Shown here piece by piece: positions 8,495-22,298 of a DNA stretch of 24,696 nucleotides. Below the pieces are notes generated by a model. That model was given only the letters and a program-made list of their open reading frames with translations, did no database searches and was not told the origin of the DNA. The position numbers and the translations under genes are program-made. The stretch is from a virus: IMG/VR virus record IMGVR_UViG_3300020383_000098, positions 1-24,696 of that record. One strand, given 5' to 3'. Numbering within the stretch: position 1 is the stretch's first letter; each line of letters starts with the position of its first letter.

Positions 8495-9424
8495 ATGGCT
8501 GTACGAGCTCCTTTATACTATAACGGCAATGATTTAAAAGAGATGTCTTCTGCCGAAGTAGACCAAATAATAGCACAAGCAATTTATCAATATTCACAAA
8601 CACCATCTGTTGTATTATCAGTAGTAGGTTCTGGCGGAAACGTAGGAACAATAACTGATACAAGACAACAAGCGGGTGCTATGTTAACACACGCTTCAAC
8701 ATTTCCAAATGAAGCAACAACACCAGAACCTACAACGGTAACTATTAGTTATGATAAAATAAATCAAACTGTAACCTCTGGTTCAGCTCCAACTGATTCA
8801 GGAAAAAGTTGGCCTGTCTATAGAACAGCAGGTAATGATATTCAAGCAATGACGTTGCAAGATGTTAAAGATACATTTATACATCCTGCTATTGATTTAT
8901 TGACAGCGGCAACTACAACAACTGAACAAGCTGGAACATATCATATTAATAATTCAAATAGTGTTGCAGGTTCTACTTTAGTTGACGCAACAGCAATTTT
9001 TGTAAATACTCAAGCAGATACAACTGCTTATGCTGCTGGAGATATTCCTGAAGATTTAGACCAACCTACAACAATTGCAAGTTATTATTTGCATAGAGTA
9101 GATGGTGTTGATACTACTATAACAAGAAGTCCACTTTATGTAACTGGTGGAAATGATTTACAAGATTATACAGAAGTTGCTTTTGAAACTTTATTAGCAA
9201 GTCATATTAAATATACTGCCGCTGCTTCAGTAGATGGTTATAAAATAACTTATAGTTATGCAAGTGGAACAAATAGAGGGACTGGTATGGCAGATACAAT
9301 ACTGACAGGTACAGGAGATTATCAAACACATCAAGCGGGTGGAGATGATTATAGAGCGCAAGAATTTCCAAATGGTACACCTACAACATCAAATACTTGG
9401 TATTTGAAAATATTAAAATCGTAA
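8495..9424 (+). CDS. Virion protein with three PLY-GND repeats
   Basis: This 309-aa protein has a GGAG ribosome binding site in the 11-base gap before it. Three copies of a repeat are visible: residues 6-30 (PLYYNGNDLKEMSSAEVDQI), 107-133 (PVYRTAGNDIQAMTLQDVKD) and 213-240 (PLYVTGGNDLQDYTEVAFET). Each is an aromatic beta strand, a GND turn, then an acidic amphipathic helix. The segments between repeats are Thr/Ser/Gly-rich beta sequence. This repeat-plus-spacer design and the position between fibre-like genes indicate a structural component of the tail or fibre. The family looks like an uncharacterised virion protein of marine T4-like phages. There is no enzymatic motif. The spacing of roughly 105 residues between repeats suggests a protein made of three similar domains. 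Confidence 0.75.
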   Translation: MAVRAPLYYNGNDLKEMSSAEVDQIIAQAIYQYSQTPSVVLSVVGSGGNVGTITDTRQQAGAMLTHASTFPNEATTPEPTTVTISYDKINQTVTSGSAPTDSGKSWPVYRTAGNDIQAMTLQDVKDTFIHPAIDLLTAATTTTEQAGTYHINNSNSVAGSTLVDATAIFVNTQADTTAYAAGDIPEDLDQPTTIASYYLHRVDGVDTTITRSPLYVTGGNDLQDYTEVAFETLLASHIKYTAAASVDGYKITYSYASGTNRGTGMADTILTGTGDYQTHQAGGDDYRAQEFPNGTPTTSNTWYLKILKS

Positions 9425-9440
9425 ATTATAGGAGTAGATT

Positions 9441-9932
9441 ATGATTAATGAAGAAAATTTTATAACAGCACATTTCATAGATAATGAAAGAAAAAATATT
9501 GAAGTATTATTAAAAAGTGATGACGGAACAGCAGTCAATCCACATATACTTGAATATGATGTTAGTAATCCAAATTGTCAAGAATTATTAAAGTTTATTT
9601 CTTTAGACCAACTTCACGAAAATACTTATACTAAAAAACAAGAAGAACGAAAAGTTTTTGAGGCAATGATAAAAAGGGTTGCTCGGAAGGAAGGTCTTAT
9701 AAAAAGAATAATAGAAGATGTTGATCCTGATTTTTTTAAATTATTGTTTGACTTTTTATTGAGTAATAAGAAAGAACATATTGATAGATTGTTTAATTTT
9801 AAGATTTTTATATTTGAACAAGATGTTGTAAAAAATTCTAAAAATGAAACTATTAAATCTGCTATTAGAAAATCTAAAACACCATTAGAGGCATTAGATA
9901 ACTTTTTAATTATCTGGAAAGAAAGTAATTAG
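9441..9932 (+). CDS. Unknown 163-aa protein closing the left structural block
   Basis: I do not recognise this gene. An AGGAG site (TATAGGAGTAGATT) precedes the ATG. The N-terminal 55 residues look like a small beta domain (ITAHFIDNERKNIEVLLKSD). The rest is predicted helical and charged (KKQEERKVFEAMIKRVARKEGLI, then DFFKLLFDFLLSNKKEH), without Cys/His clusters, membrane helices or Walker motifs. The composition differs from the Thr/Ser/Gly-rich virion genes to its left, so it is more likely an assembly or regulatory protein than a fibre. Its stop overlaps the 3' end of the leftward operon by 23 bases, so the two transcription units run into each other. It may belong to the late transcript of the tail genes. 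Confidence 0.7.
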   Translation: MINEENFITAHFIDNERKNIEVLLKSDDGTAVNPHILEYDVSNPNCQELLKFISLDQLHENTYTKKQEERKVFEAMIKRVARKEGLIKRIIEDVDPDFFKLLFDFLLSNKKEHIDRLFNFKIFIFEQDVVKNSKNETIKSAIRKSKTPLEALDNFLIIWKESN

Positions 9933-10482
9933 TCCACCAACCAGACCAACCTTCTTCCATAAGAAATTGTCTTTGATTAAATAACATTATACTAAAGTTA
10001 TCATCTTTAGGTTTATACTCATTATTTTTAATAGAATAACATACCTTTTCATAAGTGTTAACAACTAACTTTTCTTTTTCTAACAGTTCATCAATACCTT
10101 TGCTGTATTTTTCTTGCCACATATTAGGGTCTTTTTTAAATGTATTGTAGATATGAGATTGGTCACCAGTCCAAGATATAATAGATGAATTGAAAGATGT
10201 ATGTTCTCTATCTCTCCACCAAGCGTGTAAAACGGTTGGGTCTTTTCTAATTAAATTAGGTACTTTATTGTAGATACAAATATCTAAATCAAAATATAAG
10301 TTTTCTCCATCTCTATAAATGTCAAACATTTGAAGTTTATTAAAAACACCTTTATAATTTTCAACTCCTATAACAACAAACTCATCATACTTTAAACCAG
10401 AGTATGTATCTATCATATGTTTCAGATTTCTTGTATACCAAGAGTCAAATTTAGTACCTGTATTTACACAAATTATTCTCAT
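9910..10482 (-). CDS. Glycosyltransferase-like protein, last gene of leftward operon
   Basis: This is a 190-aa protein with GT-A-like features. The N-terminal strand reads MRIICVNTGT, with a following FDSWYTRNLKHMID segment. A DxD motif (residues 65-67, in NLYFDLDICIYNKV) would bind the metal and nucleotide-sugar phosphates. Later come an HAWWRDREH region and a WTGDQSHIY segment. At 190 aa it is short for a glycosyltransferase, close to a bare nucleotide-binding core plus acceptor loop. An ATG seven codons upstream exists, but the start at 10482 is preferred. It forms an ATGA overlap with the stop of the upstream gene and has AAAGGA nine bases upstream. Its neighbours are other glycosyltransferases and radical SAM proteins, supporting a shared modification pathway. 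The sugar donor and acceptor are unknown. Confidence 0.7.
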   Translation of the reverse strand: MRIICVNTGTKFDSWYTRNLKHMIDTYSGLKYDEFVVIGVENYKGVFNKLQMFDIYRDGENLYFDLDICIYNKVPNLIRKDPTVLHAWWRDREHTSFNSSIISWTGDQSHIYNTFKKDPNMWQEKYSKGIDELLEKEKLVVNTYEKVCYSIKNNEYKPKDDNFSIMLFNQRQFLMEEGWSGWWTNYFLSR

Positions 10483-11564
10483 TTCCAATAATCCTTTATC
10501 CATTCATATTTGCTAGTGTGTATATTTGCGTCAGGATTAGCAAAGTGAACAATTTTTATATCATCATTTGGTTTATCTAATATCATATAGTCTTTATTAA
10601 ATTTTTTAATATAATCAATATTATTTTGTCTATCTTCATCTTCATTATTTGTTAGTTTACAAACCCATTCAGGTGGCATTAATGTTAAATTAATTTTATG
10701 TTTTTCACACATCCAATTAATAAAGTTTTGTTCTCCATAATATTTATAGTGTACTGCACCAGTTTTATACCAATTTAATTGCCATACTTCAGGACATTTT
10801 ATAAACTCGTTCCATATAATTTTACATTCACCAGATTTAAATTTTAGAAATCCTCCATTAAGTTTTAATCCATAAGATGATTTACCTCCCCACCATTTGT
10901 TGTAAGAAACTAACTCATTATCTGCTACAGGATAACCTATCATATCATCTACATTGCCTGTAATAATTTGGTCTATGTCCATAATAATAATTTCATCACC
11001 TGGTTTTTGATAGGCAAAATGTGGTGAAAAGAAAGATAGTTTGTGCCAATGATATTTTATATCACTATGGGGTTTTAAAGGTATTACTACATCTGCTTTA
11101 ACATTTGGATTATCACTATAACATATAAACTCAAATGGTATAGTGCAATTTCTTTTTAAACTATTATATAATTTTTCAACATAGTCTGGTGTGTATTTGC
11201 CTTCAAAATATAATGTACATATTTTTATTTTTTGGTTATTAGTTGTAGATGTATAACCTCTATATTTGTTTCCCTTTTCTCCTACTTTGTTAATACTATG
11301 ATTTAAAGGTACACTACAAAATCTTTGGCAAGTTTTTGCTGGATTGGTTTTTAATTCTTCAAAAAAGTCTTTCCATTCTTTACTATAAACAATATCTTCC
11401 ACCTTGTCATTATTTTCAAGTTTTAAATGTTTTTGTCTTAATCTTTTAATTTGTGGTTCTTGCCAACCTACAGGATTATCACACCAACAACAAGGTAATA
11501 AATAACCAGTTGCTGTATAAGCAAGTTCTTTTTTATATAAACATTTTGGATTAACTTTTATCAT
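10479..11564 (-). CDS. SPASM-like Cys domain fused to GT-A glycosyltransferase
   Basis: This 361-aa protein has two parts. Residues 1-90 carry Cys8, Cys25, Cys26, Cys28, Cys79 and Cys83 in a spacing like the SPASM-type auxiliary iron-sulfur region at the C-terminus of radical SAM enzymes. The segment YLLPCCWCDN is directly comparable with QVLPCCFFCN in the radical SAM protein at 12224-13315. Residues 112-361 are a GT-A glycosyltransferase. They start with IKICTLYF, have DxD at 196-198 (IIIMDIDQIITGNVDDM), LNGGF at 235-239, GEQNF at 277-281 and a C-terminal KIVHFANPD like the HF segment of GT8-type enzymes. The gene overlaps the preceding radical SAM gene by 14 bases. That gene lacks the Cys cluster, so the two products together add up to one radical SAM-SPASM enzyme plus a transferase. 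A SPASM region placed N-terminal to a glycosyltransferase is unusual. Confidence 0.75.
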   Translation of the reverse strand: MIKVNPKCLYKKELAYTATGYLLPCCWCDNPVGWQEPQIKRLRQKHLKLENNDKVEDIVYSKEWKDFFEELKTNPAKTCQRFCSVPLNHSINKVGEKGNKYRGYTSTTNNQKIKICTLYFEGKYTPDYVEKLYNSLKRNCTIPFEFICYSDNPNVKADVVIPLKPHSDIKYHWHKLSFFSPHFAYQKPGDEIIIMDIDQIITGNVDDMIGYPVADNELVSYNKWWGGKSSYGLKLNGGFLKFKSGECKIIWNEFIKCPEVWQLNWYKTGAVHYKYYGEQNFINWMCEKHKINLTLMPPEWVCKLTNNEDEDRQNNIDYIKKFNKDYMILDKPNDDIKIVHFANPDANIHTSKYEWIKDYWK

Positions 11565-12231
11565 CTTCTAATTCTAAAGCTATTTTATAATCTTTATAAA
11601 ATTCATCCCTTCTACTATTTAAATAACGGTTTGGATTTTTAGGTTTGTATGCGTCTTTAACACCCCAGCGACCTGAATAAAGTACATCAAATAAAATATT
11701 ATTATTTTTTGCCATTTGTCTAGCTTCTTCTATATTATTTTCATTATAATTAAAAACAATATATTGCCATCTGGAAGTAAGACCTCTTTTAGCAAATAAT
11801 TTCATAACTTCAAATAATTTTGGACCATCTTGATTAATTCTATACTTATGACTATCTTTTGGTAAACCATCAATACCAAATACCCATTTAGCTTTAGGAT
11901 TTGCCTCAAAGGCTTCTTCATACCATTCCATAGGTTTTTGTGAAGCAGCTGTATTAATATAAATTGGAATTTTATTATCATAACAATATTTTAACATTTC
12001 AATCATTTTAGGATTGAATATGGGGTCTGATGCTTGCCCACAAAATATTAAACCTTTTTTAAAAAATTTAGCTATTTTTAAAAAATCATCCCAAGGCATA
12101 TCAACTCCAGGTATTTTAAAACCTTGGCGTCTTATTGATTGCCTTTGGCATTTAGGACATTCTAAAGGACACCTAAAAGTAGATTCTATATTAATTTTCC
12201 TATCTGAAAAATCATAATTTGATTTAAACAT
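11551..12231 (-). CDS. Radical SAM core protein lacking its own SPASM domain
   Basis: This is a 226-aa radical SAM protein. The signature CPLECPKC (Cys21, Cys25, Cys28; CxxxCxxC) would bind the 4Fe-4S cluster that cleaves S-adenosylmethionine. FCGQASDP (63-70) is the glycine-containing SAM-binding strand, equivalent to FCGTWGDP in the neighbouring paralogue. The partial TIM barrel continues through IPIYINTAAS and WVFGIDG. Longer frames begin with GTG at 12255 or 12243. The ATG at 12231 is chosen because it leaves only an 8-base overlap with the preceding stop, and because the resulting N-terminus (MFKSNYDF) lines up with MLYNSSIDF of the paralogue. It stops after the barrel. The Cys-rich C-terminal region found in the paralogue is instead at the start of the next gene. 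The substrate is unknown; peptide or sugar are both possible. Confidence 0.85.
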   Translation of the reverse strand: MFKSNYDFSDRKINIESTFRCPLECPKCQRQSIRRQGFKIPGVDMPWDDFLKIAKFFKKGLIFCGQASDPIFNPKMIEMLKYCYDNKIPIYINTAASQKPMEWYEEAFEANPKAKWVFGIDGLPKDSHKYRINQDGPKLFEVMKLFAKRGLTSRWQYIVFNYNENNIEEARQMAKNNNILFDVLYSGRWGVKDAYKPKNPNRYLNSRRDEFYKDYKIALELEDDKS

Positions 12232-13315
12232 AACACTTTCCACAAAATTTTTCACATTGATAGACTGGTTTAGTCTTTGACCAACTATCTTGTAGTGTAG
12301 ATTGAAACCATTTGTGTTTCAATATATCTATTAGATTACTATTAAATACATTTAATTCTTTTTCATATTTTTTATATTCTAGCATTACAGGATGTTCTAC
12401 AAAATGTTTAGCTGCTTCAGGTACTTGTTTATTATAAAAATGAGAATTGCAAAAGAAACAACAAGGTAACACTTGTCCGTTTGGATTAACAACAACTTTA
12501 TTTTTAACTCCCCATTCACAAACAATTTTCATAACTTGTTTTGCTTTTCTTATTTTTTCTATTCTTTTTTTATCAGCAGTTCCCATATACTTTTTCTTTC
12601 TAACAAATCTTCTCCTATTTAATACTATAAACTCATCTTTGTCTTCAAATGTTTCACCTGTCTTTCTTAATACTTCTTTAGTTCCATCAGTTTTTGTAAA
12701 TTTTAATTCTTTAGTATTTTCAAATCTATCAGTTGCCATAATATTATGTCTAACTGATCCGTGTTCTACACATAGTTTTTCTATTTCATCTAGGTAATCT
12801 TCATTGTGTTTCCATATTAAAGTTTGAGTATAAATTATAGCTTTTGTATTTGATAGTGTGTTCATATTATTTAATATTTTATTTAAATAAGTATTTTGCC
12901 TATAAACTTCGTGCATTTTTTGATTGATACCTTCTATAGCAAAAACAACCATTAAATTTTTATCTCCAGCTACACCTAAATTCCACCAAAACTTATCATT
13001 TCTCATTGACCCATTTGTATTAATATTGATTTTTGTTTCATTATTAGTATCTCTAATATATTTTACCATATCAATAATATTATTATTTACAATAGGATCT
13101 CCCCAGGTTCCACAAAAGTCTGCTACTCTTAATCTTTTAATTACATTTTCTGGATATGCTTTCTTAAATGTTTCTAAATCCCAATTAATATCAGGTAACC
13201 AAGATTGTTTTTTCAAACCATTTAAATCAGTTCTATGGCATTGTGGACAACCTGCATTACATCTAGTTGTTATATCTAACATTACATCAAAATCAATACT
13301 AGAATTATATAACAT
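12224..13315 (-). CDS. Radical SAM/SPASM-domain enzyme
   Basis: This is a 363-aa protein with a complete two-part layout. CNAGCPQC (Cys19, Cys23, Cys26) is the CxxxCxxC SAM-cluster motif. FCGTWGDP (67-74) is the SAM-binding strand, and ININTNGS (96-103) is a later barrel strand. The C-terminal SPASM-like cluster region has Cys266, Cys285, Cys286, Cys289, Cys354, Cys358 and Cys361 (VLPCCFFC, then CEKFCGKC). Enzymes of this build typically modify ribosomal peptides or proteins, or act on sugars and cofactors, so a post-translational or carbohydrate modification is likely. A longer TTG-started frame exists. The ATG at 13315 is preferred because GAGGAG lies exactly seven bases upstream. It overlaps the preceding glycosyltransferase by 11 bases. 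A Lys/Arg-rich insert at about 200-262 separates the barrel from the Cys region and is absent from the neighbouring paralogue. Confidence 0.88.
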   Translation of the reverse strand: MLYNSSIDFDVMLDITTRCNAGCPQCHRTDLNGLKKQSWLPDINWDLETFKKAYPENVIKRLRVADFCGTWGDPIVNNNIIDMVKYIRDTNNETKININTNGSMRNDKFWWNLGVAGDKNLMVVFAIEGINQKMHEVYRQNTYLNKILNNMNTLSNTKAIIYTQTLIWKHNEDYLDEIEKLCVEHGSVRHNIMATDRFENTKELKFTKTDGTKEVLRKTGETFEDKDEFIVLNRRRFVRKKKYMGTADKKRIEKIRKAKQVMKIVCEWGVKNKVVVNPNGQVLPCCFFCNSHFYNKQVPEAAKHFVEHPVMLEYKKYEKELNVFNSNLIDILKHKWFQSTLQDSWSKTKPVYQCEKFCGKCYV

Positions 13316-14159
13316 TCCACAACTCCTCAAATCTTTTATTGATTAAATGTATCATCTTTACAGATTTTAAATCACTTGTTATCTTATCATTTTTCATTAA
13401 ATAAGTATGCCATTCTTTAGGAAGATTATACCAATCTATATTATCTTTATCTAATAGATAGTGTACAAATATTTCATTATTTGCAAAGAAAAGTTTTGAT
13501 ATTGTTTCACCAAAAAACTGTTCCTCTTTTGCTTTCTTTAAAGTATATGACATTTCATCTAGTCTTTCTGTATATCTTAATTTTGATATAGCACTAGAAT
13601 TACCTCCAAGTATTGCTGTATTTGCTATTAAATAATCTGTATCAAATTTATTGTCTGTTGCTAACATTGCTCTTTTACATACTGCTTTTACATATTCGTT
13701 ATACTTATCTTTATGAGATATTATTGTTTCAAAATCTACCTTGCCTTTTTTATAATTCTTTCTATCTGATTGCGACCACGAATCTATATTGGCGTTAGGA
13801 GCATAGACGCATATTTTATTCATATCAAAAGTTTCAAAAAAGTTTTCAGTTGTATTAGGAACCACATCTAAATCCATATATAAAACATTATCATATTCTT
13901 TACCTAATTTTTCCCATAGATATATCTTGTATAAATTAATAATATCAAATTCAAACCCATCAAATTTCTTTTTAAATTTTTGATAGAAAGTATCATTTTC
14001 ATATACTCTATATTCAGCATTACAATGTTTGGCGTATTCTTTTTTAACATCTACTAATCTATTATAATGTTTTTCTAATTGTTGTTTAGTGAATAAATGT
14101 TTTTCACTTAAATTAGGTTCTTTGTTTTCAATGTATATACTATAGATTATGTTTTTCAC
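13305..14159 (-). CDS. GT-A glycosyltransferase-like protein (paralogue 2)
   Basis: This 284-aa protein is paralogous to the gene just upstream. Shared features in order are KNIIYSIY at the N-terminus (KRVIYSLY in the paralogue), RLxxxKxEYAK near 34-44, a KI-Y/H-L-W/L helix near 78, and the DxD motif at 96-98 (VLYMDLDVVP). Then come FFE, a LIANTAILGG segment near 180 that would be the acceptor-side loop, and a C-terminal KMIHLINKRF. This is the layout of metal-dependent nucleotide-sugar transferases. An open TTG start lies seven codons upstream. GTG at 14159 is preferred because it aligns exactly with the paralogue's ATG and has GGAGG four bases upstream. It overlaps the upstream gene by 20 bases. 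The donor sugar and acceptor are unknown. The pair suggests sequential addition of two sugars or two acceptor specificities. Confidence 0.75.
   Translation of the reverse strand: MKNIIYSIYIENKEPNLSEKHLFTKQQLEKHYNRLVDVKKEYAKHCNAEYRVYENDTFYQKFKKKFDGFEFDIINLYKIYLWEKLGKEYDNVLYMDLDVVPNTTENFFETFDMNKICVYAPNANIDSWSQSDRKNYKKGKVDFETIISHKDKYNEYVKAVCKRAMLATDNKFDTDYLIANTAILGGNSSAISKLRYTERLDEMSYTLKKAKEEQFFGETISKLFFANNEIFVHYLLDKDNIDWYNLPKEWHTYLMKNDKITSDLKSVKMIHLINKRFEELWNVI
13323..13328 (-). promoter_or_regulatory. Shine-Dalgarno site that fixes the radical SAM/SPASM start
   Basis: On the minus strand the sequence GAGGAG is followed by seven bases (TTGTGGA) and then ATG at 13315. It lies inside the 3' end of the upstream glycosyltransferase gene. 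It makes the ATG, not the upstream TTG, the likely start. Confidence 0.75.
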
Positions 14160-15015
14160 AATACCTCCATACTGTATCAAAGTCTTTATTGACCGTGTGT
14201 ACTATCTTTGTTTCTTTTGGTATATAAAATTGAGTATCAAAGAAGTAATGCCAACGTCTATCTAACCATTGTATAGCAACTTTATTTACATTTATTTTAT
14301 ATGAAAAGATTGTTTCATTATCATAACGGAACATATCAATAATATTTTGAGGATATAAATTATCTAATCCTTCTTTTCTTAATTTTGTCATTAAATCTAT
14401 TGTATCTTTAAACTTACCAAAAAAATCTAATTTAAGGATTTGTTCTTTTGAAGCACCAATGATACCTGTATTAATAACATCATTTTTAGGATTGTTATCA
14501 GTTGCAATGAGCATTGCTTGACAATTAAAATATTTTGCTGTAGGACTTCTGATACCGTGTGTCACTTTATCAATAGTACGGTCTTGTTTATTAATCATAG
14601 TATTGTTATTATAGACAGCAATATGATTTTGTAAATCCCATACTTCAAAAAAGGAATCTTTGGTGACAGGTACAGCGTCAAAATCCAAATACAAAATTTC
14701 ATCATATTTTTTTGCTAGTTCATATAACAAATGTATCTTGTAAAAGTTTATTACTTCATAACCTGTTAATTCTGGAAAGTCCTTTAGTAAGTTCTTTTCA
14801 AATGTCTTGTATTGTTTATCATACTCATACATTTTAAAAGATACACCTATAGCTTTAGCATATTCACGTTTAATGGCAATTAATCTTTTATAATTGTCTT
14901 TAAATGAATTTCTAGTTTCTTTTGCTTTTTTTAATGTGTCGTACTTGAATTTAGAAGGACCATAATGTTCTTTTTCAGGCACATCAACATATAAACTGTA
15001 AATAACTCTTTTCAT
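14140..15015 (-). CDS. GT-A glycosyltransferase-like protein (paralogue 1), first gene of leftward operon
   Basis: This 291-aa protein begins KRVIYSLYVD and carries DxD at residues 111-113 (ILYLDFDAVP), the metal and nucleotide-sugar site of GT-A fold transferases. Upstream is a RLIAIKREYAK helix (44-54) and a YEVINFYKIHLLYEL helix (86-100). Downstream is DVINTGIIGAS near 182, and the C-terminus carries TKIVHTVNKDF. The same pattern appears in the next gene, so the two are tandem duplicates that have diverged considerably. It is the promoter-proximal member of a six-gene leftward operon in which every gene overlaps the next. The start ATG lies 37 bases from the divergent gene; a 7/8 match to the T4 late promoter sits in that gap. 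The likely role is transfer of a sugar to a phage or host surface molecule. Confidence 0.75.
   Translation of the reverse strand: MKRVIYSLYVDVPEKEHYGPSKFKYDTLKKAKETRNSFKDNYKRLIAIKREYAKAIGVSFKMYEYDKQYKTFEKNLLKDFPELTGYEVINFYKIHLLYELAKKYDEILYLDFDAVPVTKDSFFEVWDLQNHIAVYNNNTMINKQDRTIDKVTHGIRSPTAKYFNCQAMLIATDNNPKNDVINTGIIGASKEQILKLDFFGKFKDTIDLMTKLRKEGLDNLYPQNIIDMFRYDNETIFSYKINVNKVAIQWLDRRWHYFFDTQFYIPKETKIVHTVNKDFDTVWRYCEKHNL
14164..14168 (-). promoter_or_regulatory. Shine-Dalgarno site supporting a GTG start
   Basis: GGAGG on the minus strand is followed by TATT and GTG (14159-14157). The spacing is short, but the predicted N-terminus aligns residue by residue with the paralogue's first nine residues, so this GTG is the best start for the second glycosyltransferase. 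Confidence 0.55.
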
Positions 15016-15052
15016 ACTTGTATAAATAATACTAGACTATTTATTAAAGATT
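15016..15052. promoter_or_regulatory. Divergent promoter region
   Basis: This 37-base gap separates the leftward and rightward operons. On the plus strand TATAAATA at 15021-15028 is a perfect T4-type late promoter, followed 24 bases later by the ATG at 15053. On the minus strand AATAAATA (15045-15038) matches 7 of 8 positions and lies 22 bases before the leftward ATG at 15015. Both halves of the cargo island could therefore be switched on with the late genes. Confidence 0.6.
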
Positions 15053-15619
15053 ATGGATACTATATTAAAAGTGATTGATGGAGTGACCACGGATAGACTG
15101 GTCAAGTCTATTATAAATTCACTAAACGAAAATCAAGAGAAAAGCAAAGATTGGCTTATAGAAAAGTCAAAAAAATACTTTACATTTTTTGCTAAACCCA
15201 AAATATGTGTAGCAGCTGGTTGGTATGGGCATTTAGCAAATAAGCTAAAAGAATATACTAAAGGAGAGATTGTTTCCTTTGATAAAGACCTAATGTGTAA
15301 AAAGATTGGGCAAAGACTTTATAAAGATATTACATTTACAGAAGCAGATGTAAAGTATTATGATATTAAAAAATTTGATATAGTTATATGTACTTCTTGC
15401 GAACATCTTGGTCAGTATTTAATAGATGAATTTTTAAAGAGAAGAAAGAAAGGATCGCTAGTTATATTTCAATCAAATAATTATTTTTCAATTGACGAGC
15501 ATATTAATTGTCATAATAGTGTAGTAGAATTTGAGAAGAGTTTAAAATTAGAAAAGGTATTATATAGGGGTACTTTAAAATTGGATAAGTATGAAAGATA
15601 TATGGTGATAGGAATATGA
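15053..15619 (+). CDS. Class I SAM-dependent methyltransferase-like protein
   Basis: This 188-aa protein has a Rossmann methyltransferase layout. Residues 1-48 are helical (DRLVKSIINSL). A motif I-like strand-loop follows at 51-61 (ICVAAGWYGHL), with Gly56 and Gly59 in the SAM-binding turn. IVSFDKD (73-79) gives the acidic residue for the SAM ribose. FDIVICTSCEHL (108-119) is the motif IV strand. RKKGSLVIFQSNN and the C-terminal YRGTLKLDKYERYMVIGI give the closing strands. The acceptor is not apparent. It is the first gene of the rightward operon, behind a late promoter, and its stop overlaps the next start as ATGA. It may methylate a sugar, a protein side chain or a small molecule made by the island. 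Class I fold is fairly secure; specificity is open. Confidence 0.75.
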   Translation: MDTILKVIDGVTTDRLVKSIINSLNENQEKSKDWLIEKSKKYFTFFAKPKICVAAGWYGHLANKLKEYTKGEIVSFDKDLMCKKIGQRLYKDITFTEADVKYYDIKKFDIVICTSCEHLGQYLIDEFLKRRKKGSLVIFQSNNYFSIDEHINCHNSVVEFEKSLKLEKVLYRGTLKLDKYERYMVIGI

Positions 15620-16368
15620 AAATATTATTAACAGGTAGTGATGGATTTATTGGTAAAAATCTTTTAACTTGGTTAGAAAAAAAATACTTTGAGGTAATTG
15701 GTTTAGACCATAAATCAGGTAAAGAATTACTTACCTGTGATTTAAAATATAATGTTGATTGTGTTGTACATCTAGCAGGTCTATCTGGTGTCAGACAAAG
15801 TTTTGAAAATCCTACAGACTATTGGAAACAAAACGTTATCGTAAGTCAAAGAATATTTGACTATTTTAAAGATACAAGAATTTTATATGCAAGTTCAAGT
15901 ACTGCATATGAACCCTGGAGAAATCCTTATGCAATGAGTAAGTATGGTATGGAACTAATTGCTCCTGCAAATAGTTTGGGTATGAGATTTACTACTGTAT
16001 ATGGACCAGGTGCAAGAGATACTATGTTGATACCAAAAATTTTAAAAAATGATGTGCCATATATTAATACAAATCATAGTAGAGATTTTATACACGTGTA
16101 TGATATTTGTTCAGCGATTGAATCTATATTAAGACAAAAATCAATTTCAGCATTTACTGAAAAGACAGGTGTAATAGATATAGGCACAGGTACTACACAT
16201 AAGTTAACTGATATGATGGACTACTTTGGAATTACTACCGAAAAAAGAATTGGTGGTGATACTGAAAGACTTGACAACAAAGCAAACATAGACGCAATGA
16301 CAAGTTATGGTTGGGAACCTCAATATGAAGTAAAGAAATATATTGAAGATAATAGGAGAACGAATTAA
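15616..16368 (+). CDS. NAD-dependent epimerase/dehydratase (extended SDR family)
   Basis: This 250-aa protein has all the SDR landmarks. The NAD-binding GSDGFIG (GxxGxxG) lies at 7-13, and VVHLAGLSG at 50-58. The catalytic Ser/Thr is in ASSSTAYEP (92-100), followed by YAMSK (Tyr105, Lys109; YxxxK). TVYGPGARD and a RDFIHVYDI segment are typical of nucleotide-sugar epimerases and dehydratases. It is shorter than UDP-glucose 4-epimerase or GDP-fucose synthase (about 310-340 aa), mainly in the C-terminal substrate domain. It probably prepares a nucleotide sugar for the glycosyltransferases transcribed in the opposite direction. It overlaps the methyltransferase by four bases (ATGA) and has AGGA before its ATG. 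The exact sugar cannot be told from sequence. Confidence 0.88.
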   Translation: MKILLTGSDGFIGKNLLTWLEKKYFEVIGLDHKSGKELLTCDLKYNVDCVVHLAGLSGVRQSFENPTDYWKQNVIVSQRIFDYFKDTRILYASSSTAYEPWRNPYAMSKYGMELIAPANSLGMRFTTVYGPGARDTMLIPKILKNDVPYINTNHSRDFIHVYDICSAIESILRQKSISAFTEKTGVIDIGTGTTHKLTDMMDYFGITTEKRIGGDTERLDNKANIDAMTSYGWEPQYEVKKYIEDNRRTN

Positions 16369-16991
16369 TGCTAGATGATGATAAAGCATTACAACGATTG
16401 TGGTTGGTGGACTCCGTACTTGAAATGTTTACCTACAAAGCAATAGATTTAAATATTACAAAAGAAGATATAAACTTAATTGCTACAGAAATAAAATCTG
16501 TATCAAGTGGTTGGTATTTTAATGAGTACAGAAATTGTGAAGTATTAAGTATATATGATAAAAATTTTGAATGGACAAAAGAAGGTAAAACTTGTAAACA
16601 TTTAATAAAAGTTTATGAAGAAAAAATTAAACCTATTATGTCTAATAAAGGTAAGATACATATACTAAAAACTAAAAAAGGTAATCATATACCAACACAC
16701 ATAGACTGCCATCAAATAGAAATACCAGAGTTTCATCAAAAATTTAGACTTGCATTAACAGGTAAATTAGATAGTTTATATTTTTTAGATAAAGATAATA
16801 ATAAAGTTTATGCACCCACATATAATACTTATATTTTAAACGGTGGTCATCCTCACGGATTAGAACCAGATGAAGAAAAGTTAACCGTATGTATAGGAGC
16901 GCCTTGGATAGGTGAGGATAAATATTCTAACGAGGTATATACAATGAATGTGATACCTCCTAAATTAAAAAAGGAATGGATACAATGGTAA
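16368..16991 (+). CDS. Putative 2-oxoglutarate/Fe(II) oxygenase 1
   Basis: This 207-aa protein shows the double-stranded beta-helix signature. HxD lies at His111-Asp113 (IPTHIDCHQ), with FRLAL at 126-130 on the next strand (Arg127). YILNGGHPHG gives a distal His (161 or 163), followed by a strand ending in CIGAPW. The HxD...H triad would bind Fe(II), and the enzyme would hydroxylate a substrate using 2-oxoglutarate. The usual Arg after the distal His is replaced by Lys171, so 2-oxoglutarate binding may use Arg127 as in aspartyl/asparaginyl hydroxylase-like enzymes. Its start sits in TAATG, overlapping the epimerase stop by one base, with AGGAG nine bases upstream. Fold class is inferred from motifs only. 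Confidence 0.68.
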   Translation: MLDDDKALQRLWLVDSVLEMFTYKAIDLNITKEDINLIATEIKSVSSGWYFNEYRNCEVLSIYDKNFEWTKEGKTCKHLIKVYEEKIKPIMSNKGKIHILKTKKGNHIPTHIDCHQIEIPEFHQKFRLALTGKLDSLYFLDKDNNKVYAPTYNTYILNGGHPHGLEPDEEKLTVCIGAPWIGEDKYSNEVYTMNVIPPKLKKEWIQW

Positions 16992-17605
16992 ATTATAGTG
17001 AGTTTTTAACATATGGAGATTTTATACCTTTAAATTTAAGGTGTGATGTTAACAAATTATTTAAAGAAATTAAAGATTTTAAATTTAGTCAATATAATCC
17101 TAGAAAAAATATACCTAGATATGGTCTTAGCATAACTAGTATAGATGGCAAAGTCAATGGAATAGATTTAGATAGTATCTATCAATTATCTAAAGAAACA
17201 GGTATTGATTATGATGAAGATTCATTTACTACACTTACAGATGTTTACTATAAAAGCGAAGAAGTAAGAAAAATAGTAGACCCATTTAAACCTTGGTTAT
17301 GTAGAACACATTTTTTAAATTTTAAGAGAGGTGGATATTTTCCTCCTCATATAGATAATTACAGATTTGGTGAACAAAGATTTATGAGATTATTAGTACC
17401 ATTAAGAAAATGTAATCCACCTAATATGTATTTTATGTATGAAGATAAACCATTGAATTTTAATGAAGGATATACATACTTTTTAAACACAAATAAAAGA
17501 CACGCTATATTTTCTTATAAAGAAGATACCACAATGTTAGTAATGAATATCAAATGTTGTGATGAATCCATAAAAAAAATATTGAAAAATATGATGTATA
17601 AATAG
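16985..17605 (+). CDS. Putative 2-oxoglutarate/Fe(II) oxygenase 2
   Basis: This 206-aa protein has the HxD motif at His122-Asp124 (YFPPHIDNYR). Arg135 follows in RFMRLLVPL on the next strand, and the distal His173 sits in YFLNTNKRHAIFSY, preceded by an NEGYTYFLN turn. This is the pattern of prolyl- or asparaginyl-hydroxylase-like phage oxygenases. No clear Arg follows the distal His at the usual distance. Two ATGs are possible. The one at 16985 is preferred to 16976 because AAGGA lies nine bases upstream of it. It overlaps the previous oxygenase gene by 7 bases. Its last codons and stop (TAT AAA TAG) form a T4 late promoter for the downstream genes. Substrate unknown. Confidence 0.7.
   Translation: MVNYSEFLTYGDFIPLNLRCDVNKLFKEIKDFKFSQYNPRKNIPRYGLSITSIDGKVNGIDLDSIYQLSKETGIDYDEDSFTTLTDVYYKSEEVRKIVDPFKPWLCRTHFLNFKRGGYFPPHIDNYRFGEQRFMRLLVPLRKCNPPNMYFMYEDKPLNFNEGYTYFLNTNKRHAIFSYKEDTTMLVMNIKCCDESIKKILKNMMYK
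17597..17604 (+). promoter_or_regulatory. T4-type late promoter (TATAAATA) within a 3' gene end
   Basis: TATAAATA in the context ATGTATAAATAGAAATAG. It lies in the final Tyr-Lys-stop codons of oxygenase 2 and 18 bases before the next ATG, which has a GAGG ribosome binding site. It matches the late promoters at 15021 and 22277, including the preceding TG. Confidence 0.65.
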
Positions 17606-17621
17606 AAATAGAGGATAAAAA

Positions 17622-17936
17622 ATGGCAGTAACATACAAATTAATTCAACAAAGACCATCAGCTGAAGTTGATTTTTGGTCAATAGACCCAGCAGATATAG
17701 ACCAAGCAGATATAATAGCAAGAATCGAAGAATATAAGACAGCAGGAAAAATTATCAGTATAGATTTTACTGGAACAATTTCAGAAGATTTATTAGTAAA
17801 AACTATGTCAATAACTCTTATTGATGATATCGCATACGAAGAATATATAAATGACGATATTATTCTTGTAAATATTGATAACAGAATTAAATATTGCGAA
17901 GATAATTCTATTAATTGGTCAGTAGAAGAAGCGTAA
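17622..17936 (+). CDS. Unknown 104-aa acidic protein behind its own late promoter
   Basis: I do not recognise this gene. It starts MAVTYKLIQQRPSAEVDFW and is rich in Asp, Glu and Ile. Alternating hydrophobic strands (KIISIDFTGTIS, then LVKTMSITLIDDIAYEEYI) suggest a compact beta or alpha/beta fold. It has no membrane helix, metal-binding motif or coiled coil. A GAGG ribosome binding site and a late promoter directly precede it, and the desaturase gene begins six bases after its stop. The N-terminal sequence style resembles small virion-associated proteins of marine myoviruses. It may be a structural protein left between cargo genes rather than an enzyme; that is a guess. Confidence 0.7.
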   Translation: MAVTYKLIQQRPSAEVDFWSIDPADIDQADIIARIEEYKTAGKIISIDFTGTISEDLLVKTMSITLIDDIAYEEYINDDIILVNIDNRIKYCEDNSINWSVEEA

Positions 17937-17942
17937 TATAAA

Positions 17943-18572
17943 ATGGATATTTTTATTATGCTATTAATAGGTTTTGTTTGGTATCAGTTTATTGCTATGT
18001 TTGGATTGTCAATAGGTCTACATAGACACTTTGCACACAATCAATTTAAAACATCTAAACTATACGAAGTGTTTTCATTGTTTCTAGCAATGTTGGCATT
18101 TTCAAGGTCACCATTAAGTTGGATTGGTGCTCATAGAATACACCATAGATATTCAGATACAGAAAATGATCCACACTCACCTACAAATATAGGTTTTTGG
18201 AATGTTCTTTTCAATAATTGGAAAGTTAAAAAAATAGATAGACCTTATGTAAGAGATTTATATAAAAATCCTAGAATAATATTTTTTCATAATCATTGGT
18301 TGAAATTACATATTGCAACGGCAGTTATAACTTTATTAATAAGTGTGCCAATTTTTATTATATTTGTTCTCTCACCATTAGTATTAGGTTTTTTTAGTTA
18401 TGGTATTTTTAATGCGTTAGGACATAAAGACAACAAACCAGTTACAAATAGATTTATAAATTTTTTATCTGCTGGAGAAGGTCATCATAATGTACATCAC
18501 AACAACCCTAAACAAGTTAGATTAAGTAAAGGAGATATTTCAGGATACATAATTGAAAAATATTTTATATAA
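17943..18572 (+). CDS. Membrane fatty acid desaturase (acyl-CoA/acyl-lipid delta-9 type)
   Basis: This 209-aa integral membrane desaturase has the three histidine boxes. HRHFAH lies at 27-32, HRIHH at 64-68 and HHNVHH at 181-186. It also has the conserved DPHSP (76-80) and the NALGHKDNKP segment (157-166) of the stearoyl-CoA desaturase family. Hydrophobic helices lie at about 4-24, 42-53, 122-143 and 145-158. Such enzymes use a di-iron centre, oxygen and electron donors to insert a cis double bond into an acyl chain. It is shorter than bacterial homologues (about 250-320 aa), with trimmed N- and C-termini but every ligand box kept, so it is probably active. The next gene, an Asp/Arg hydroxylase-like protein, overlaps by one base. 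It would change the unsaturation of host membrane lipids, or modify an acyl chain on an envelope molecule. Confidence 0.9.
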   Translation: MDIFIMLLIGFVWYQFIAMFGLSIGLHRHFAHNQFKTSKLYEVFSLFLAMLAFSRSPLSWIGAHRIHHRYSDTENDPHSPTNIGFWNVLFNNWKVKKIDRPYVRDLYKNPRIIFFHNHWLKLHIATAVITLLISVPIFIIFVLSPLVLGFFSYGIFNALGHKDNKPVTNRFINFLSAGEGHHNVHHNNPKQVRLSKGDISGYIIEKYFI

Positions 18573-19150
18573 TGAAGTTTGATAGAAATAGTAGCGTTGA
18601 GTGGGTTGAAATGGGATTTAATGTTCCTGTTAATTCTATATTAAGAGAGTATAGAGATATAAAAGATAGTTTAATAGAACATAGACCTGAAGATGGACAC
18701 AAAGATTGGTACGCAGTTACCTTATACGGATTTGGTTCAGATAAAACTAATAGTCATTGGGAGTATAGAAAGAAAGGTGAAAAACCTTTTGTAACAGATA
18801 TTGGACAAAAATGTTCAGGAACAATTAAATGGGTTAAGTCTTTACCTTATTCTCGTATAGATGATATTAGATTTTTAGTAATAAAACCAAAAGGATATAT
18901 TACTAAACACATTGATATGCCTGAAAGAAATTGGTTAGACCCATTAAATATTAGTATAACATATCCTGAAGGTAATAAGTTTATGTTGAATAATAAAGAG
19001 TTAAAATATAAACCTGGTATGAGTGTTGTGTTAAATGTACATTATGAACACTATGTGGAAAACAATTCAGATGAAGAAAGAATACATCTAGTGGTACACG
19101 GTAAGAAAAAGAAAGAGTTTTGGAATGATATTCACACCTGGCAACAATAA
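18572..19150 (+). CDS. Aspartyl/asparaginyl beta-hydroxylase-like oxygenase (3)
   Basis: This 192-aa protein resembles the aspartyl/asparaginyl beta-hydroxylase (Asp_Arg_Hydrox) group. It has WYAVTLYG at 46-53 and HxD at His113-Asp115 (YITKHIDMPERNW). PLNISITYPEGNKF follows on the next strands. The distal His is 157 or 160 (LNVHYEHYVEN), with a distal Arg170 in EERIHLVVHG that would hold 2-oxoglutarate. The same family contains LpxO, which hydroxylates a lipid A acyl chain. Since the desaturase stop overlaps this start by one base (TAATG), a lipid substrate is worth considering alongside a protein one. No Shine-Dalgarno is evident, so translation is probably coupled to the desaturase. Enzyme class is good; substrate is inferred. 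Confidence 0.75.
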   Translation: MKFDRNSSVEWVEMGFNVPVNSILREYRDIKDSLIEHRPEDGHKDWYAVTLYGFGSDKTNSHWEYRKKGEKPFVTDIGQKCSGTIKWVKSLPYSRIDDIRFLVIKPKGYITKHIDMPERNWLDPLNISITYPEGNKFMLNNKELKYKPGMSVVLNVHYEHYVENNSDEERIHLVVHGKKKKEFWNDIHTWQQ

Positions 19151-19670
19151 AGAAAAAAACAGAAAAGGTGATTGTGATGTACTAACTTTCGCACCAGAAG
19201 AACGTATAGACATAATAAAAAAATTAAAAGATATAGATTTTAACAACGAAGCTTTAAAAGAAAATTATCAAACTATAAATTGGTTTGACTTTGATTGTAT
19301 AACGGTTTTAATGAAAGGTGATGACATACTAGGATTTAGTTCTATTTGGCACCGTTATGAATATTACAGAAAGGGTGAAGTTAGAGTATTGAATAGGTAT
19401 TGGGAGGATCCCTCGTTAAGACAACCAGGCCATAAGTTAGCAAAAACTCATATCATCTCAACTATCAATCATCAACTTGCCTTTGCAAAACAATTAGGAT
19501 ATACAAGTGCGTTTATAAGTAAAGAAAAAAACCCTCGTATGTTTAGAAAGTTATTAGATGGTATTGAAAACAAAACAAATACTGTTTGGTCACTATCTGA
19601 TAAAAAAGTTTGTGTATGTAAAGAAGAAAACCCTAGTTGTTGGCAATATAAAGGAGAAACAAAACTATGA
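19125..19670 (+). CDS. Possible GNAT-like acyltransferase
   Basis: This 181-aa protein has a layout like GNAT N-acyltransferases. A helical start (APEERIDIIKKLKDI) is followed by a strand pair (CITVLMKGDDILGFSSIWHR, typical of the GNAT central hairpin). Then come a strand-loop (EVRVLNRYWEDPSLRQPG), a long helix (THIISTINHQLAFAKQLG) and the strand YTSAFISKEKNPR. The C-terminus has three Cys residues (VCVCKEENPSC). The expected Q/RxxGxG/A acyl-CoA loop is only loosely represented by RQPGHK, so the assignment is tentative. It overlaps the preceding oxygenase by 26 bases and has no obvious ribosome binding site, suggesting coupling. Phages of this group often carry such proteins without known function. 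Confidence 0.5.
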   Translation: MIFTPGNNKEKNRKGDCDVLTFAPEERIDIIKKLKDIDFNNEALKENYQTINWFDFDCITVLMKGDDILGFSSIWHRYEYYRKGEVRVLNRYWEDPSLRQPGHKLAKTHIISTINHQLAFAKQLGYTSAFISKEKNPRMFRKLLDGIENKTNTVWSLSDKKVCVCKEENPSCWQYKGETKL

Positions 19671-20464
19671 AGAAACGACACGAATTACCTGCATTTAAAA
19701 AGTTAAATAAAACTTTTGATGTTGATAAGATACTTGAAGTTATGAGAATAATGCCTGTTAAGGATGACCTTAAAGAAAAAGGTGGGTATGGTGAGATAGT
19801 AGGTGGTAAGTGTTGTTGTCTTCAAAAAGCATTTGGTCTAAAGTTTGATACCATAGAAGAAGCATATCAGTTTCTACAAGAAAATGATGTTGAACAATCT
19901 GCATTAAAAGAAGGTCTTGGTGGTAAAAGAATGGCGTGGGATTTTAGAAACTATGTTAAACCATTTGAAGAATACATAGAAAAAGATGACAAAGGTAAAT
20001 ATCAAGTCAACGGTTCTCCTTACAAACAAATTGCATTAACACAATATAATCCAGAAATGGAAGATAGAGTTTATGATAAAAAAATACCTAAAACAAGATT
20101 AGATGAAAGACATTATAACAAAGTAAAAGATTGGGTTAAAGGAACATATTTAGAAGAAGTATTAACTTCTTTCAAAGCAGAATTTACTAGAGCAAGAATT
20201 GCTGTTATGAATCCTGGTGCGTTTGTTTCTGAACACATTGATTACAATACAGATTATTCAGTCCGTTATCATATACCTATTACAACAAATAAAGATTGTG
20301 GTTTCTATGCTGTCAAAGATGGAGAGAAAGTCTATCAGACAATGGAACCTGGATCAGTTTGGTTTTTAAATCAAGGTTTAAGACATAGTGCTTGGAACAA
20401 AGGCACTACATCACGTTCTCACATTATTATTTCGTTTTTGACACAAGAGGATATGAATGATTAA
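19667..20464 (+). CDS. Putative 2-oxoglutarate/Fe(II) oxygenase 4 with N-terminal extension
   Basis: This 265-aa protein is the largest oxygenase in the cluster. Its catalytic half is complete: RIAVMNPGAFVSEH, then HxD at His190-Asp192. SVRYHIPI places Arg200 on the following strand. GFYAV and the EPGSVWFLN turn lead to the distal His240 (LRHSAWNKG), with a distal Arg250 (TSRSHIIISF). This is very like asparaginyl/prolyl hydroxylase-type enzymes. The N-terminal 170 residues form an additional mostly helical domain with a CCC run at 49-51 and no motif I recognise; it may bind the substrate. A strong AAGGAG lies before the ATG, which overlaps the previous stop by four bases. Confidence 0.8.
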   Translation: MKKRHELPAFKKLNKTFDVDKILEVMRIMPVKDDLKEKGGYGEIVGGKCCCLQKAFGLKFDTIEEAYQFLQENDVEQSALKEGLGGKRMAWDFRNYVKPFEEYIEKDDKGKYQVNGSPYKQIALTQYNPEMEDRVYDKKIPKTRLDERHYNKVKDWVKGTYLEEVLTSFKAEFTRARIAVMNPGAFVSEHIDYNTDYSVRYHIPITTNKDCGFYAVKDGEKVYQTMEPGSVWFLNQGLRHSAWNKGTTSRSHIIISFLTQEDMND

Positions 20465-20966
20465 GAAATGGCATAAAAACTTTTTTATTGAAACAGACTT
20501 TAAAGTAGATAAAGATTTCTGGAATGATTACTTTAATGGTAAGTGGGAAGACAGCAATCAGTTGTATTCTGAATATGTTAAAGACATAACTGGTGGTAAA
20601 GATATGAATAAGTTTTATGTACAAGAGATACACAACTTTGACCGTAAATTATTAAGACTAATAAAAAGTATTTGGAATGAATTTGAAATAAGACCTAAAG
20701 AATTTAGATGTAATTTTTTTAGAGTAAAAGAAGGCGGAGAATTACCTTTACATTCAGATGCTAAAAGTAAATGTTCTTTTGTGATACCTATAACAGAAAA
20801 TACAGGAGAATTGTACTTTGATGATGGTAAAGAAAGTGCTAGTATTTTGTACGAATCAATGGTCGTATTAAATACAAAAAAACCACACGGTGTCAAATCT
20901 CCAACGAAAGAAAGGATAGTATTTCATATGGGAATACACGATATTGACTTTGAAAAATTACTTTAA
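20457..20966 (+). CDS. Putative 2-oxoglutarate/Fe(II) oxygenase 5
   Basis: This compact 169-aa protein has HxD at His99-Asp101 (ELPLHSDAKSK), then CSFVIPI and GELYFDDG on successive strands. SMVVLNTKKPHG carries the distal His144, and KERIVFHMGI the distal Arg153. All four residues expected for Fe(II) and 2-oxoglutarate binding are present with normal spacing. The N-terminal 80 residues are aromatic and charged, as in phage hydroxylases that bind a protein or small-molecule acceptor. The start has an AGAGGA site and overlaps oxygenase 4 by eight bases. It differs enough from the other oxygenases in the window to indicate a different substrate rather than a recent duplication. Confidence 0.75.
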   Translation: MIKKWHKNFFIETDFKVDKDFWNDYFNGKWEDSNQLYSEYVKDITGGKDMNKFYVQEIHNFDRKLLRLIKSIWNEFEIRPKEFRCNFFRVKEGGELPLHSDAKSKCSFVIPITENTGELYFDDGKESASILYESMVVLNTKKPHGVKSPTKERIVFHMGIHDIDFEKLL

Positions 20967-21555
20967 ATATAATGTTAGAGAATACTTTGAGCAGTATATT
21001 GATTTTAGCAATAAATCTGTACTAGACTTTGGATGTAATAATGGCAACTTTATTCGTTATAATCCACATAGTCAATACACAGGAATAGACATTAATAAAG
21101 AAATTATTGACATTAACAAAACAAAATATCCTCAATACAAATGGTTATACTACAATGGATATAATTATATGTACAATAAAAATGGAACAGAAAAATTACA
21201 GTTAAAAAATAAATATGATGTTGCAGTAGCATTTTCAGTAATCACACATATGTACGAAAATGAGATGATGGAAGTTGTTGATAATTTAAAAAAAAATTGT
21301 AGTAAGTTATTGTTGTCATACTATTCAAATACTGATAAAGATTCATATGAAAATATTTGTAAATATAGAAATCTTAAAGCAGACAAATGGAAACAAATAA
21401 GTGAAAGCAATGTATATTATTTAAAAACAAAAGATTTTTTATGGACTTTTTACAACGACCAATACATCAAATCATTATTACAATGTGATATAAAAGAAAC
21501 TAAATTTGATGACGCAACAGCAGTGTTAGGAATGCAAAAATGCTTAATAATATAA
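20944..21555 (+). CDS. Class I SAM-dependent methyltransferase
   Basis: This is a methyltransferase of about 203 aa with motif I VLDFGCNNGNF (26-36), the acidic ribose-binding residue in YTGIDINKE (45-53), motif IV-like YDVAVAFSVITHMYEN near 93-108 and KLLLSYYSN as the following strand. This is a standard class I fold. No ATG exists before the conserved region. The frame opens after a stop at 20917, and the best candidates are TTG at 20944 or 20950, both inside the previous gene. The start is therefore uncertain, and the overlap is about 17-23 bases. Lys/Asn/Tyr-rich composition matches the neighbouring genes. The acceptor is unknown; methylation of a sugar or a protein residue would fit the cluster. 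Confidence 0.78.
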   Translation: MTLKNYFKYNVREYFEQYIDFSNKSVLDFGCNNGNFIRYNPHSQYTGIDINKEIIDINKTKYPQYKWLYYNGYNYMYNKNGTEKLQLKNKYDVAVAFSVITHMYENEMMEVVDNLKKNCSKLLLSYYSNTDKDSYENICKYRNLKADKWKQISESNVYYLKTKDFLWTFYNDQYIKSLLQCDIKETKFDDATAVLGMQKCLII

Positions 21556-21564
21556 AAGAGTTTT

Positions 21565-22269
21565 ATGAACCCAACACACACAATATTTAATAAGTTAAAT
21601 CCTGATTGGTGTTTAGAACAAGTACAATGGATTATAAAAAATATACCAATGACTGAAAGTAGTAACAGTAGTGGTAAATTTTATCATACTTATCGTTGTT
21701 GGCATTTTCACAAAACTAGTGAAGTGCCTATTATAAAAGAAATGAATAGGTTGATAGAAGAACAATCAAAACAATTTGAAGAAATATATAACAGAGCACC
21801 TAAAACTGATTTCTTTAATCTTGCTTATACAGTAGATGACAGCAAAGAGATGTGTGTATGGCATAAAGACCGTTATTTCTTTAATGGTCAATATCATATT
21901 ACAATTAAAGGTAATGCAAATATAAGTGTTGATAATGGTAAAGATATTGAAACTATAAATGTGCCTAATGGTACAATGTGGTATATGAATGGTACTGAAT
22001 ATAAACACAAGATAAACACAGGCACAGGAACTGAACGTTTTGAACTTTGTGCTCCTATGAGTCAAAGACCTGAACACGTAAAAGTTAAAATAAAAGGTGT
22101 TGTAAATAATAAATGGAAATACATTGATACTAGTAGCGAAGAATACAATAACTTTAGAAAAAAACTTGCTGAAGGTGTTGAAGACGCAGTTAAAAGAGGA
22201 ACTGCTAGTAATAAAAGTGTAGCATTTCCTACACCACCTGAAGGATTTAAAACTATTGACACCTGTTAA
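21565..22269 (+). CDS. Putative 2-oxoglutarate/Fe(II) oxygenase 6
   Basis: This 234-aa protein carries HxD at His100-Asp102 (MCVWHKDRYF), then GQYHITIKGNANISVDNG. A VPNGTMWYMNG turn leads to the distal His148 (EYKHKINTG), with Arg158 (TGTERFELCAP) ten residues on. Spacing and residues fit an aspartyl/asparaginyl hydroxylase-like double-stranded beta helix. Both ends are extended. Residues 1-80 are helical with aromatic residues, and residues 165-234 (after CAPMSQRPEH) form a charged tail, part of which may be disordered. The gene starts nine bases after the methyltransferase stop and is the last of the cargo island. The tandem late promoters for the second virion block follow it directly. Confidence 0.7.
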   Translation: MNPTHTIFNKLNPDWCLEQVQWIIKNIPMTESSNSSGKFYHTYRCWHFHKTSEVPIIKEMNRLIEEQSKQFEEIYNRAPKTDFFNLAYTVDDSKEMCVWHKDRYFFNGQYHITIKGNANISVDNGKDIETINVPNGTMWYMNGTEYKHKINTGTGTERFELCAPMSQRPEHVKVKIKGVVNNKWKYIDTSSEEYNNFRKKLAEGVEDAVKRGTASNKSVAFPTPPEGFKTIDTC

Positions 22270-22276: not shown

Positions 22277-22298
22277 TATAAATAGTATATAAATAGTA
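22277..22298 (+). promoter_or_regulatory. Tandem T4-type late promoters
   Basis: Two perfect TATAAATA boxes (22277-22284 and 22288-22295) lie in an exact 11-base tandem repeat (TATAAATAGTA twice). They lie in the 57-base gap before the gene at 22327, which has a GGAGA ribosome binding site. The gap holds no other feature that I can see. Confidence 0.7.

Follow-up and report, generated by a model that had tools for sequence, protein, structure and literature searches.

A modular enzyme island with late-type promoter motifs beside the tail fibre genes of a pelagimyophage, tentatively read as a host envelope remodelling locus

Why would a marine phage keep a long run of enzyme genes in the midst of its virion structural genes? 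This question is raised by the IMG/VR record IMGVR_UViG_3300020383_000098, a metagenomic contig of 24,696 bases that was analysed over its whole length (hereafter, the window; its genes carry W numbers, and the loci compared with it carry L numbers). An earlier note, made from the sequence alone, had placed an enzyme island at 9910-22269 between two structural blocks, and gene calls and family matches bore out both the coordinates and the identity of the flanks. The left block, on the plus strand, consists of the baseplate wedge gene gp8 (34-1272; PF09215, phrog_438), the gene for the DUF4815 virion protein VrlC (1282-7326; PF16075, phrog_358), the gene for a 73-aa virion protein (7328-7549; phrog_473), the fibre-like gene W04 (7551-8483), and the virion-like gene W05 (8495-9424). 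The gp8 product is 74% identical to that of Mosig, the closest cultured phage, and 49% to that of HTVC008M, both of them SAR11 phages, and less than 40% identical to those of cyanophages; by this protein, the contig is assigned to the T4-like pelagimyophages. The right block, also on the plus strand, holds a homologue of L-shaped tail fibre assembly proteins, our right anchor (22531-22866; phrog_1084, phrog_3304), and a tail fibre gene (23190-24695) that is 72% identical to a Mosig fibre and runs off the contig end. Our answer, tentative as a whole because the target is uncertain, is that the island is a modular late locus that would remodel the glycans and lipids of the host envelope.

The island contains 18 genes, all intact, with six on the minus strand (9910-15015) and 12 on the plus strand (15053-22269), and the two arms are separated by a divergent centre of 37 bp (15016-15052). 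Divergence from this centre and overlap of nearly all genes had been described before and were found again: 13 of the 16 same-strand junctions overlap, several of them depending on GTG or TTG starts. Judged by sequence and predicted fold, the predicted enzymes comprise four GT-A glycosyltransferases, two radical S-adenosylmethionine (SAM) enzymes, six 2-oxoglutarate (2OG) oxygenases, and one desaturase. The GC content is 27.8% in the island, 33.4% in the left flank, and 35.1% in the right flank. W06 (9441-9932, plus strand; 163 aa, no assigned function) shares the low GC (24%) and co-occurs with the island, so that the block described earlier is real but its left edge is better set at about 9441 than at 9910. 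The description of its content as enzymes plus one unknown also has to be adjusted, because W07 (9910-10503), which has no family match, is a GT-A enzyme by predicted fold, and the clearest gene without an assigned function is W17 (17622-17936, plus strand; no family match). The ratio of nonsynonymous to synonymous substitution rates (dN/dS) was 0.1-0.4 for 14 of the 15 island genes tested; with such purifying selection, the island is unlikely to be junk. Mobility of the tRNA or integrase type was considered and rejected: the window has no tRNA gene, and its family matches include neither an integrase nor a homing nuclease.

Is the island a fixed possession of these phages? We surveyed 54 IMG/VR loci that have the 73-aa gene as anchor and extend for at least 4 kb downstream of it; the island was present in 33 and missing in 21. 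In most carriers, a core recurred at a fixed position, namely W06, W07, a W12-type glycosyltransferase, W13, the epimerase, and radical SAM. The possibility that these are simply conserved core genes of all relatives, which the earlier note had set against a modular locus, is therefore borne out for this core in most carriers, but fails on the loci without an island and on the swapped content of the others. HTVC008M, isolated on the same host strain as Mosig, has fibres and no such island at the site; the island is therefore not needed to infect that host.

Pairwise DNA comparison revealed blocks of 98-99.6% identity that end abruptly. L012 and L014 share 11.7 kb of left flank at 99.06% identity, beyond which their islands differ. 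L112 and L018 differ in their left parts and are 99.6% identical for 7.9 kb that start at the epimerase and include the right fibres. In L018 and L017, a stretch of 8.0 kb with 98.2% identity stops at the epimerase. The switch points are located in the adjacent fibre gene (W05), at the epimerase gene (W14), and at the right fibre block. The right fibres of the window are 96% identical to those of phages with other islands. The oxygenase/desaturase cassette W15-W22 (16400-21013, plus strand) recurs at 87-88% DNA identity in L218-L221, where its neighbours are Mosig-type left modules and right fibres of only 68-73% identity, and W24 alone was found at 94.8% DNA identity inside another island. 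Homologous exchange at shared genes is the simplest reading of these sequences, and the W14 epimerase may serve as a homology anchor. The synteny comparison that the earlier note had called for thus gave what it predicted, that is, the same position, swapped enzymes, and flanks up to 99% identical. We conclude with high confidence that this is a modular locus at a fixed site with swapped content.

An assembly chimera could imitate such a pattern, as the contig is metagenomic and the switch points lie in conserved genes, where assemblers also misjoin. We regard this as very improbable: the complete genome of cultured Mosig shows the same architecture, with its own divergent enzyme island between the same flanks, and junctions recur in contigs from different samples (L012/L013/L158, L020/L021, and L218-L220). 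Of the two positions suspected earlier, 9932 gave no sign of misassembly, the convergent W06/W07 junction recurring in Mosig and in several contigs. At 22270, the exact W24/W25 junction was not met elsewhere among the compared loci, but where other islands adjoin the fibre block, its start is the same (~22286-22288).

When would such a locus be expressed? The divergent centre holds two late-type promoter motifs back to back, TATAAATA in the forward direction and AATAAATA, with one mismatch, in the reverse direction. The same two-way layout was seen in the centre of Mosig and in most related centres. In Mosig, TATAAATA is located 8-90 bp upstream of 13 of the 56 structural genes versus 5 of the 97 replication/early genes (Fisher p 0.001), as expected from the sequence of a T4-type late promoter, and it also precedes both divergent island genes. 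The Mosig annotation includes a gp55-like late sigma factor and an accessory protein for late promoters. The late promoter of T4 is known to be TATAAAT (PMC3037559). Two further late-type motifs stand ahead of the right fibre block of the window (22278-22326, plus strand), at the right exchange edge. Across the whole window ATAAATA was not above chance (14 copies observed, 23 expected), so the case for promoters rests on the position of the motif in gaps (5 of the 14 copies fall within 207 non-coding bases) and on its conservation. The island is probably expressed late from its shared centre.

The minus-strand arm encodes the predicted glycosyltransferases and radical SAM enzymes. W07 was assigned by predicted structure and fold search: its AlphaFold model (pLDDT 82) gave a Foldseek E of ~4e-5 and was aligned with glycogenin by VIA-align (Z 12.4, root-mean-square deviation 3.4, 179 aligned), and its sequence carries a DLD motif. 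W12 (14140-15015; GT8-like, DFD motif) is the most conserved island enzyme relative to Mosig (66% identity to Mosig_00091); its match to PF01501 is just below the cut-off, and its predicted fold resembles the PBCV-1 capsid glycosyltransferase (Z 14.2, root-mean-square deviation 3.1, 184 aligned) and LgtC (Z 11.9). Both are thus predicted to be glycosyltransferases of GT-A fold with a DxD motif. The alignments for structure prediction were built from loci other than Mosig. Fold searches with W07 and W12 did not separate lipopolysaccharide (LPS) from protein glycosyltransferases, and sequence searches of the PDB with W12, W08, W10, and W24 found little. W11 (13305-14180; DLD motif) is a glycosyltransferase related to W12, with 29% identity to Mosig_00091.

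W10 (12224-13330) is a radical SAM protein with a SPASM domain: PF04055 is above its cut-off, PF13186 is just below its cut-off with the C-terminal SPASM cysteines conserved, and CxxxCxxC is present. W09 (11551-12255; PF04055, CxxxCxxC) is a radical SAM protein without a SPASM domain of its own, and the two domains are found in adjacent proteins, W08 (10479-11564) being a SPASM-type Fe-S domain fused to a glycosyltransferase with a DID motif (phrog_1962 in the C-terminal part). Relatives of this region (10479-12255) show three architectures. The SPASM-type domain is joined to the front of the glycosyltransferase in the window and several relatives, it is joined to the radical SAM domain in L122, and in Mosig it is a protein of its own (112 aa), encoded after a radical SAM protein of ~211 aa. 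These architectures suggest that the W09 radical SAM protein and the W08 glycosyltransferase may act together. A "GT-SPASM" class from an architecture scan was discarded, because glycosyltransferase sequence had partly contaminated the SPASM profile. The W08 profile has a weak match to GlyE, an adhesin glycosyltransferase.

The plus-strand arm starts with W13 (15053-15619), which is SAM methyltransferase-like (weak NF045844) and homologous to Mosig_00090, and W14 (15616-16368; PF01370), the mobile NAD-dependent sugar epimerase at the switch point. W14 shows 92-95% DNA identity in phages where the epimerase sits on either side of the glycosyltransferase module, and its dN/dS is relaxed (0.69). 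W19 (18572-19150) and W21 (19667-20464) belong to the Asp/Arg hydroxylase family of 2OG oxygenases (PF05118). W15 (16368-16991), W16 (16976-17605), W22 (20457-20966), and W24 (21565-22269) have no Pfam match and are 2OG oxygenase-like by an HxD...H motif; W15 and W22 are conserved in the cassette, W16 is 56% identical to Mosig_00081 (annotated Asp_Arg_Hydrox), and W24 moves as a single gene. W18 (17943-18572; PF00487) is a predicted fatty-acid desaturase with His boxes and, by hydropathy, the only clear membrane protein of the island. W23 (20944-21555; PF08242, PF13489) is a predicted SAM methyltransferase. W20 (19125-19670), which has no Pfam match, is tentatively a GNAT-like acetyltransferase from its resemblance and its position akin to Mosig_00073. 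Its identity is only 54%, against mostly 73-97% for its neighbours in the cassette, as though this allele alone had been replaced.

Which virion genes accompany the island? W04 was found with or without it. In contrast, every locus with W05 had an island (31/31, and 62/62 in a converse scan), and 21 of the 23 loci without W05 had none, the two carriers without W05 being L028 and L037; these loci are related and not phylogenetically independent, so that p-values overstate the linkage. Neither W05 nor W06 matched any of 50,697 phage records besides Mosig. Co-adaptation of the W05 sequence with island type was not found, as identity within types equalled that between types, and near-identical W05 proteins occur with different islands (L022/L025 and L014/L018). 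W05 would therefore be a general partner and not a type-specific one. W05 usually has 309 aa, and a long form of 386-388 aa (~78 extra residues) occurs in L014, L017, L018, L022, L025, and L026. One could imagine that W05, W06, and the glycosyltransferase/radical-SAM core belong to a single dedicated system of a large marine T4-like phage group, by which a phage would build a variable radical-SAM-tailored glycan on its own tail. W05 would then serve as acceptor or scaffold, and the sugar chemistry would change by exchange of cassettes. We consider this rather unlikely.

What, then, could the island do? It corresponds to the enzyme portion of the host recognition cluster (HRC) of pelagimyophages. 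The site is fixed, bordered by the VrlC-side fibres and the L-shaped-fibre block, and it holds exchangeable cassettes that are presumably expressed late. Judging from enzyme families, the minus-strand module and the epimerase may build or rearrange an unusual glycan, and the plus-strand module (2OG oxygenases, desaturase, methyltransferases, and perhaps acetyltransferase) may decorate sugars, acyl chains, or peptides. The target would be the outer envelope of the host (LPS core/lipid A or glycolipids); its change late in infection would keep rival phages, or the phage's own progeny, from adhering to the cell or its debris. We name the outer envelope as the most likely target with some reserve. 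A lipid target is favoured because a desaturase needs lipid, and PF05118 includes LpxO. LpxC was found in 86 of 97 SAR11-order genomes, and lipid A is therefore available as a target; in Mosig, a gene annotated as UDP-2,3-diacylglucosamine hydrolase lies close to genes for an Asp/Arg hydroxylase and a 2OG oxygenase. A surface change against co-infection has already been proposed for this cluster (PMC7029224). Several points weigh against the envelope as target. The island has no membrane protein besides W18, no flippase, and no polymerase; late expression suits virion modification at least equally; and the strong W05/W06 linkage is not expected if the host surface alone matters. Of 247 SAR11-order genomes, only one matched W12, and that genome includes a mis-binned phage contig; the other 246 had no homologue, so that the choice of target has no host pathway to go by. 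The compared contigs are metagenomic, and both the enzyme activities and the target are read from sequence families. The job tied to the virion surface or to the receptor or envelope that had been proposed earlier thus stands as the best available class of explanation, reached through enzyme families.

The main alternative is that the same enzymes work in the cytosol and modify tail or fibre proteins of the phage itself (W05 or its neighbours), so that particles have a variable glycan or hydroxylated surface that alters adsorption or protection. This is a serious possibility, though we do not expect it to hold. The late-type promoters are common to the island and the fibre genes, the presence of W05 implies an island, the glycosyltransferases are soluble, the nearest fold to W12 is that of a capsid glycosyltransferase, and the GlyE match of W08 fits as well; peptides are the substrates of many SPASM radical-SAM and Asp/Arg hydroxylase enzymes. 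Self-modification also has a precedent in mycobacteriophages (PMC12363180). However, near-identical W05 proteins stand beside different islands, two carriers lack W05, the right cassettes adjoin divergent fibres, and the desaturase is hard to fit; the linkage counts share the dependence mentioned above, and fold likeness does not give a substrate. Neither sequence nor fold ranks can separate envelope remodelling from virion self-modification.

Two readings away from the cell and virion surface are less probable. Auxiliary metabolism, as a small-molecule, cofactor, or redox pathway in a permissive site, is improbable. Cyanophage work has suggested that 2OG enzymes may affect 2OG levels (PMC3037559), and oxygenases, radical SAM enzymes, and the nitroreductases and aminotransferases of relatives can serve small-molecule pathways. 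This reading accounts poorly for the glycosyltransferase core with a sugar epimerase, the fixed site at fibre genes, the late-type promoters, and content that is swapped and not conserved. Phage glycosyltransferases and 2OG enzymes can also modify DNA, but hypermodification of DNA against restriction is highly unlikely here, as the promoters are late-type and we know of no DNA modifiers in the GT8/GT-A-like and PF05118 families. Restriction-modification occurs in only one of >100 SAR11 genomes (PMC7029224).

How does the locus, with host envelope remodelling as its favoured function, compare with known systems? The HRC of pelagimyophages was described by Zaragoza-Solas et al. 2020, who noted glycosyltransferases and radical-SAM cassettes (PMC7029224). 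The window agrees in coming from a T4-like pelagimyophage (by gp8), in its position downstream of VrlC in the structural region, in hypervariable, non-syntenic content, and in combining tail fibres with glycosyltransferases and radical-SAM cassettes. The HRC is bounded by gp14 at its far side, whereas the window stops in a fibre gene at 24696, before gp14. An enzyme content well beyond the usual, as claimed earlier, is true against cyanophages but not against pelagimyophages, whose published HRCs average 44.6 kb (PMC7029224). Both the locus type and the surface reading were thus published in 2020, and the surprise is lower than the earlier note implied.

The island of Mosig EXVC030M (at 55-72 kb) is orthologous and divergent, occupies the same site, and has late-type motifs in both directions. 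Common to both are W06, W07, W08-GT, W09, W12, W13, W14, W16, W18, and W21-type genes, mostly 28-66% identical. The Mosig island differs in having aminotransferases, a carbamoyltransferase, nitroreductases, and extra radical SAM, in the epimerase on the other side, and in the SPASM domain as a separate gene. In mycobacteriophage virion glycosylation, phage glycosyltransferases modify their own virion proteins, the action considered above for self-modification, but the phages and enzymes are others, and to our knowledge no radical SAM, oxygenase, or desaturase set is involved. Cyanophage LPS gene clusters and 2OG oxygenase genes likewise bring sugar enzymes and 2OG oxygenases into T4-like marine phages, but the LPS clusters sit elsewhere, near hli03 and phoH (PMC3037559), and P-HM2 has no such module between these fibre genes.

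New here are the cassette boundaries, the paired TATAAATA-like late promoters in a centre conserved in relatives, the near-perfect linkage of the island to W05 and W06, the split radical SAM/SPASM enzyme, and the enzyme inventory. SAR11 and its phages rank among the ocean's most abundant entities, and near-identical phages that differ in a late surface-chemistry kit are natural pairs for questions of enzyme function. The W05/W06 linkage and the pair of Mosig (island) and HTVC008M (none) on the same host strain make envelope versus virion target directly testable.

The core is also found at a greater distance. In L185, L190, L194, L206, and L212, whose VrlC reaches only ~30-34% identity, the same place is occupied by a W05-W06-W07-W13-W12-radical SAM module, in which as many as five radical SAM genes can follow one another; the module therefore extends well beyond close relatives. 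A host origin of the glycosyltransferases was considered and rejected, since the genome scan gave only five short contigs of metagenome-assembled genomes (MAGs), which are mis-binned phage because all hold neighbouring island genes and four of the five hold phage fibre-side genes. Five GTDB MAG contigs (L130-L134), labelled Gammaproteobacteria, Pelagibacter, Flavobacteriaceae, and Rhodobiaceae, are pelagimyophage-like island fragments in bacterial bins. Mosig has a second cluster of glycosyltransferase, sulfotransferase, and methyltransferase genes (MT647606, 124832-130666; L305) on the replication side, away from the fibres.

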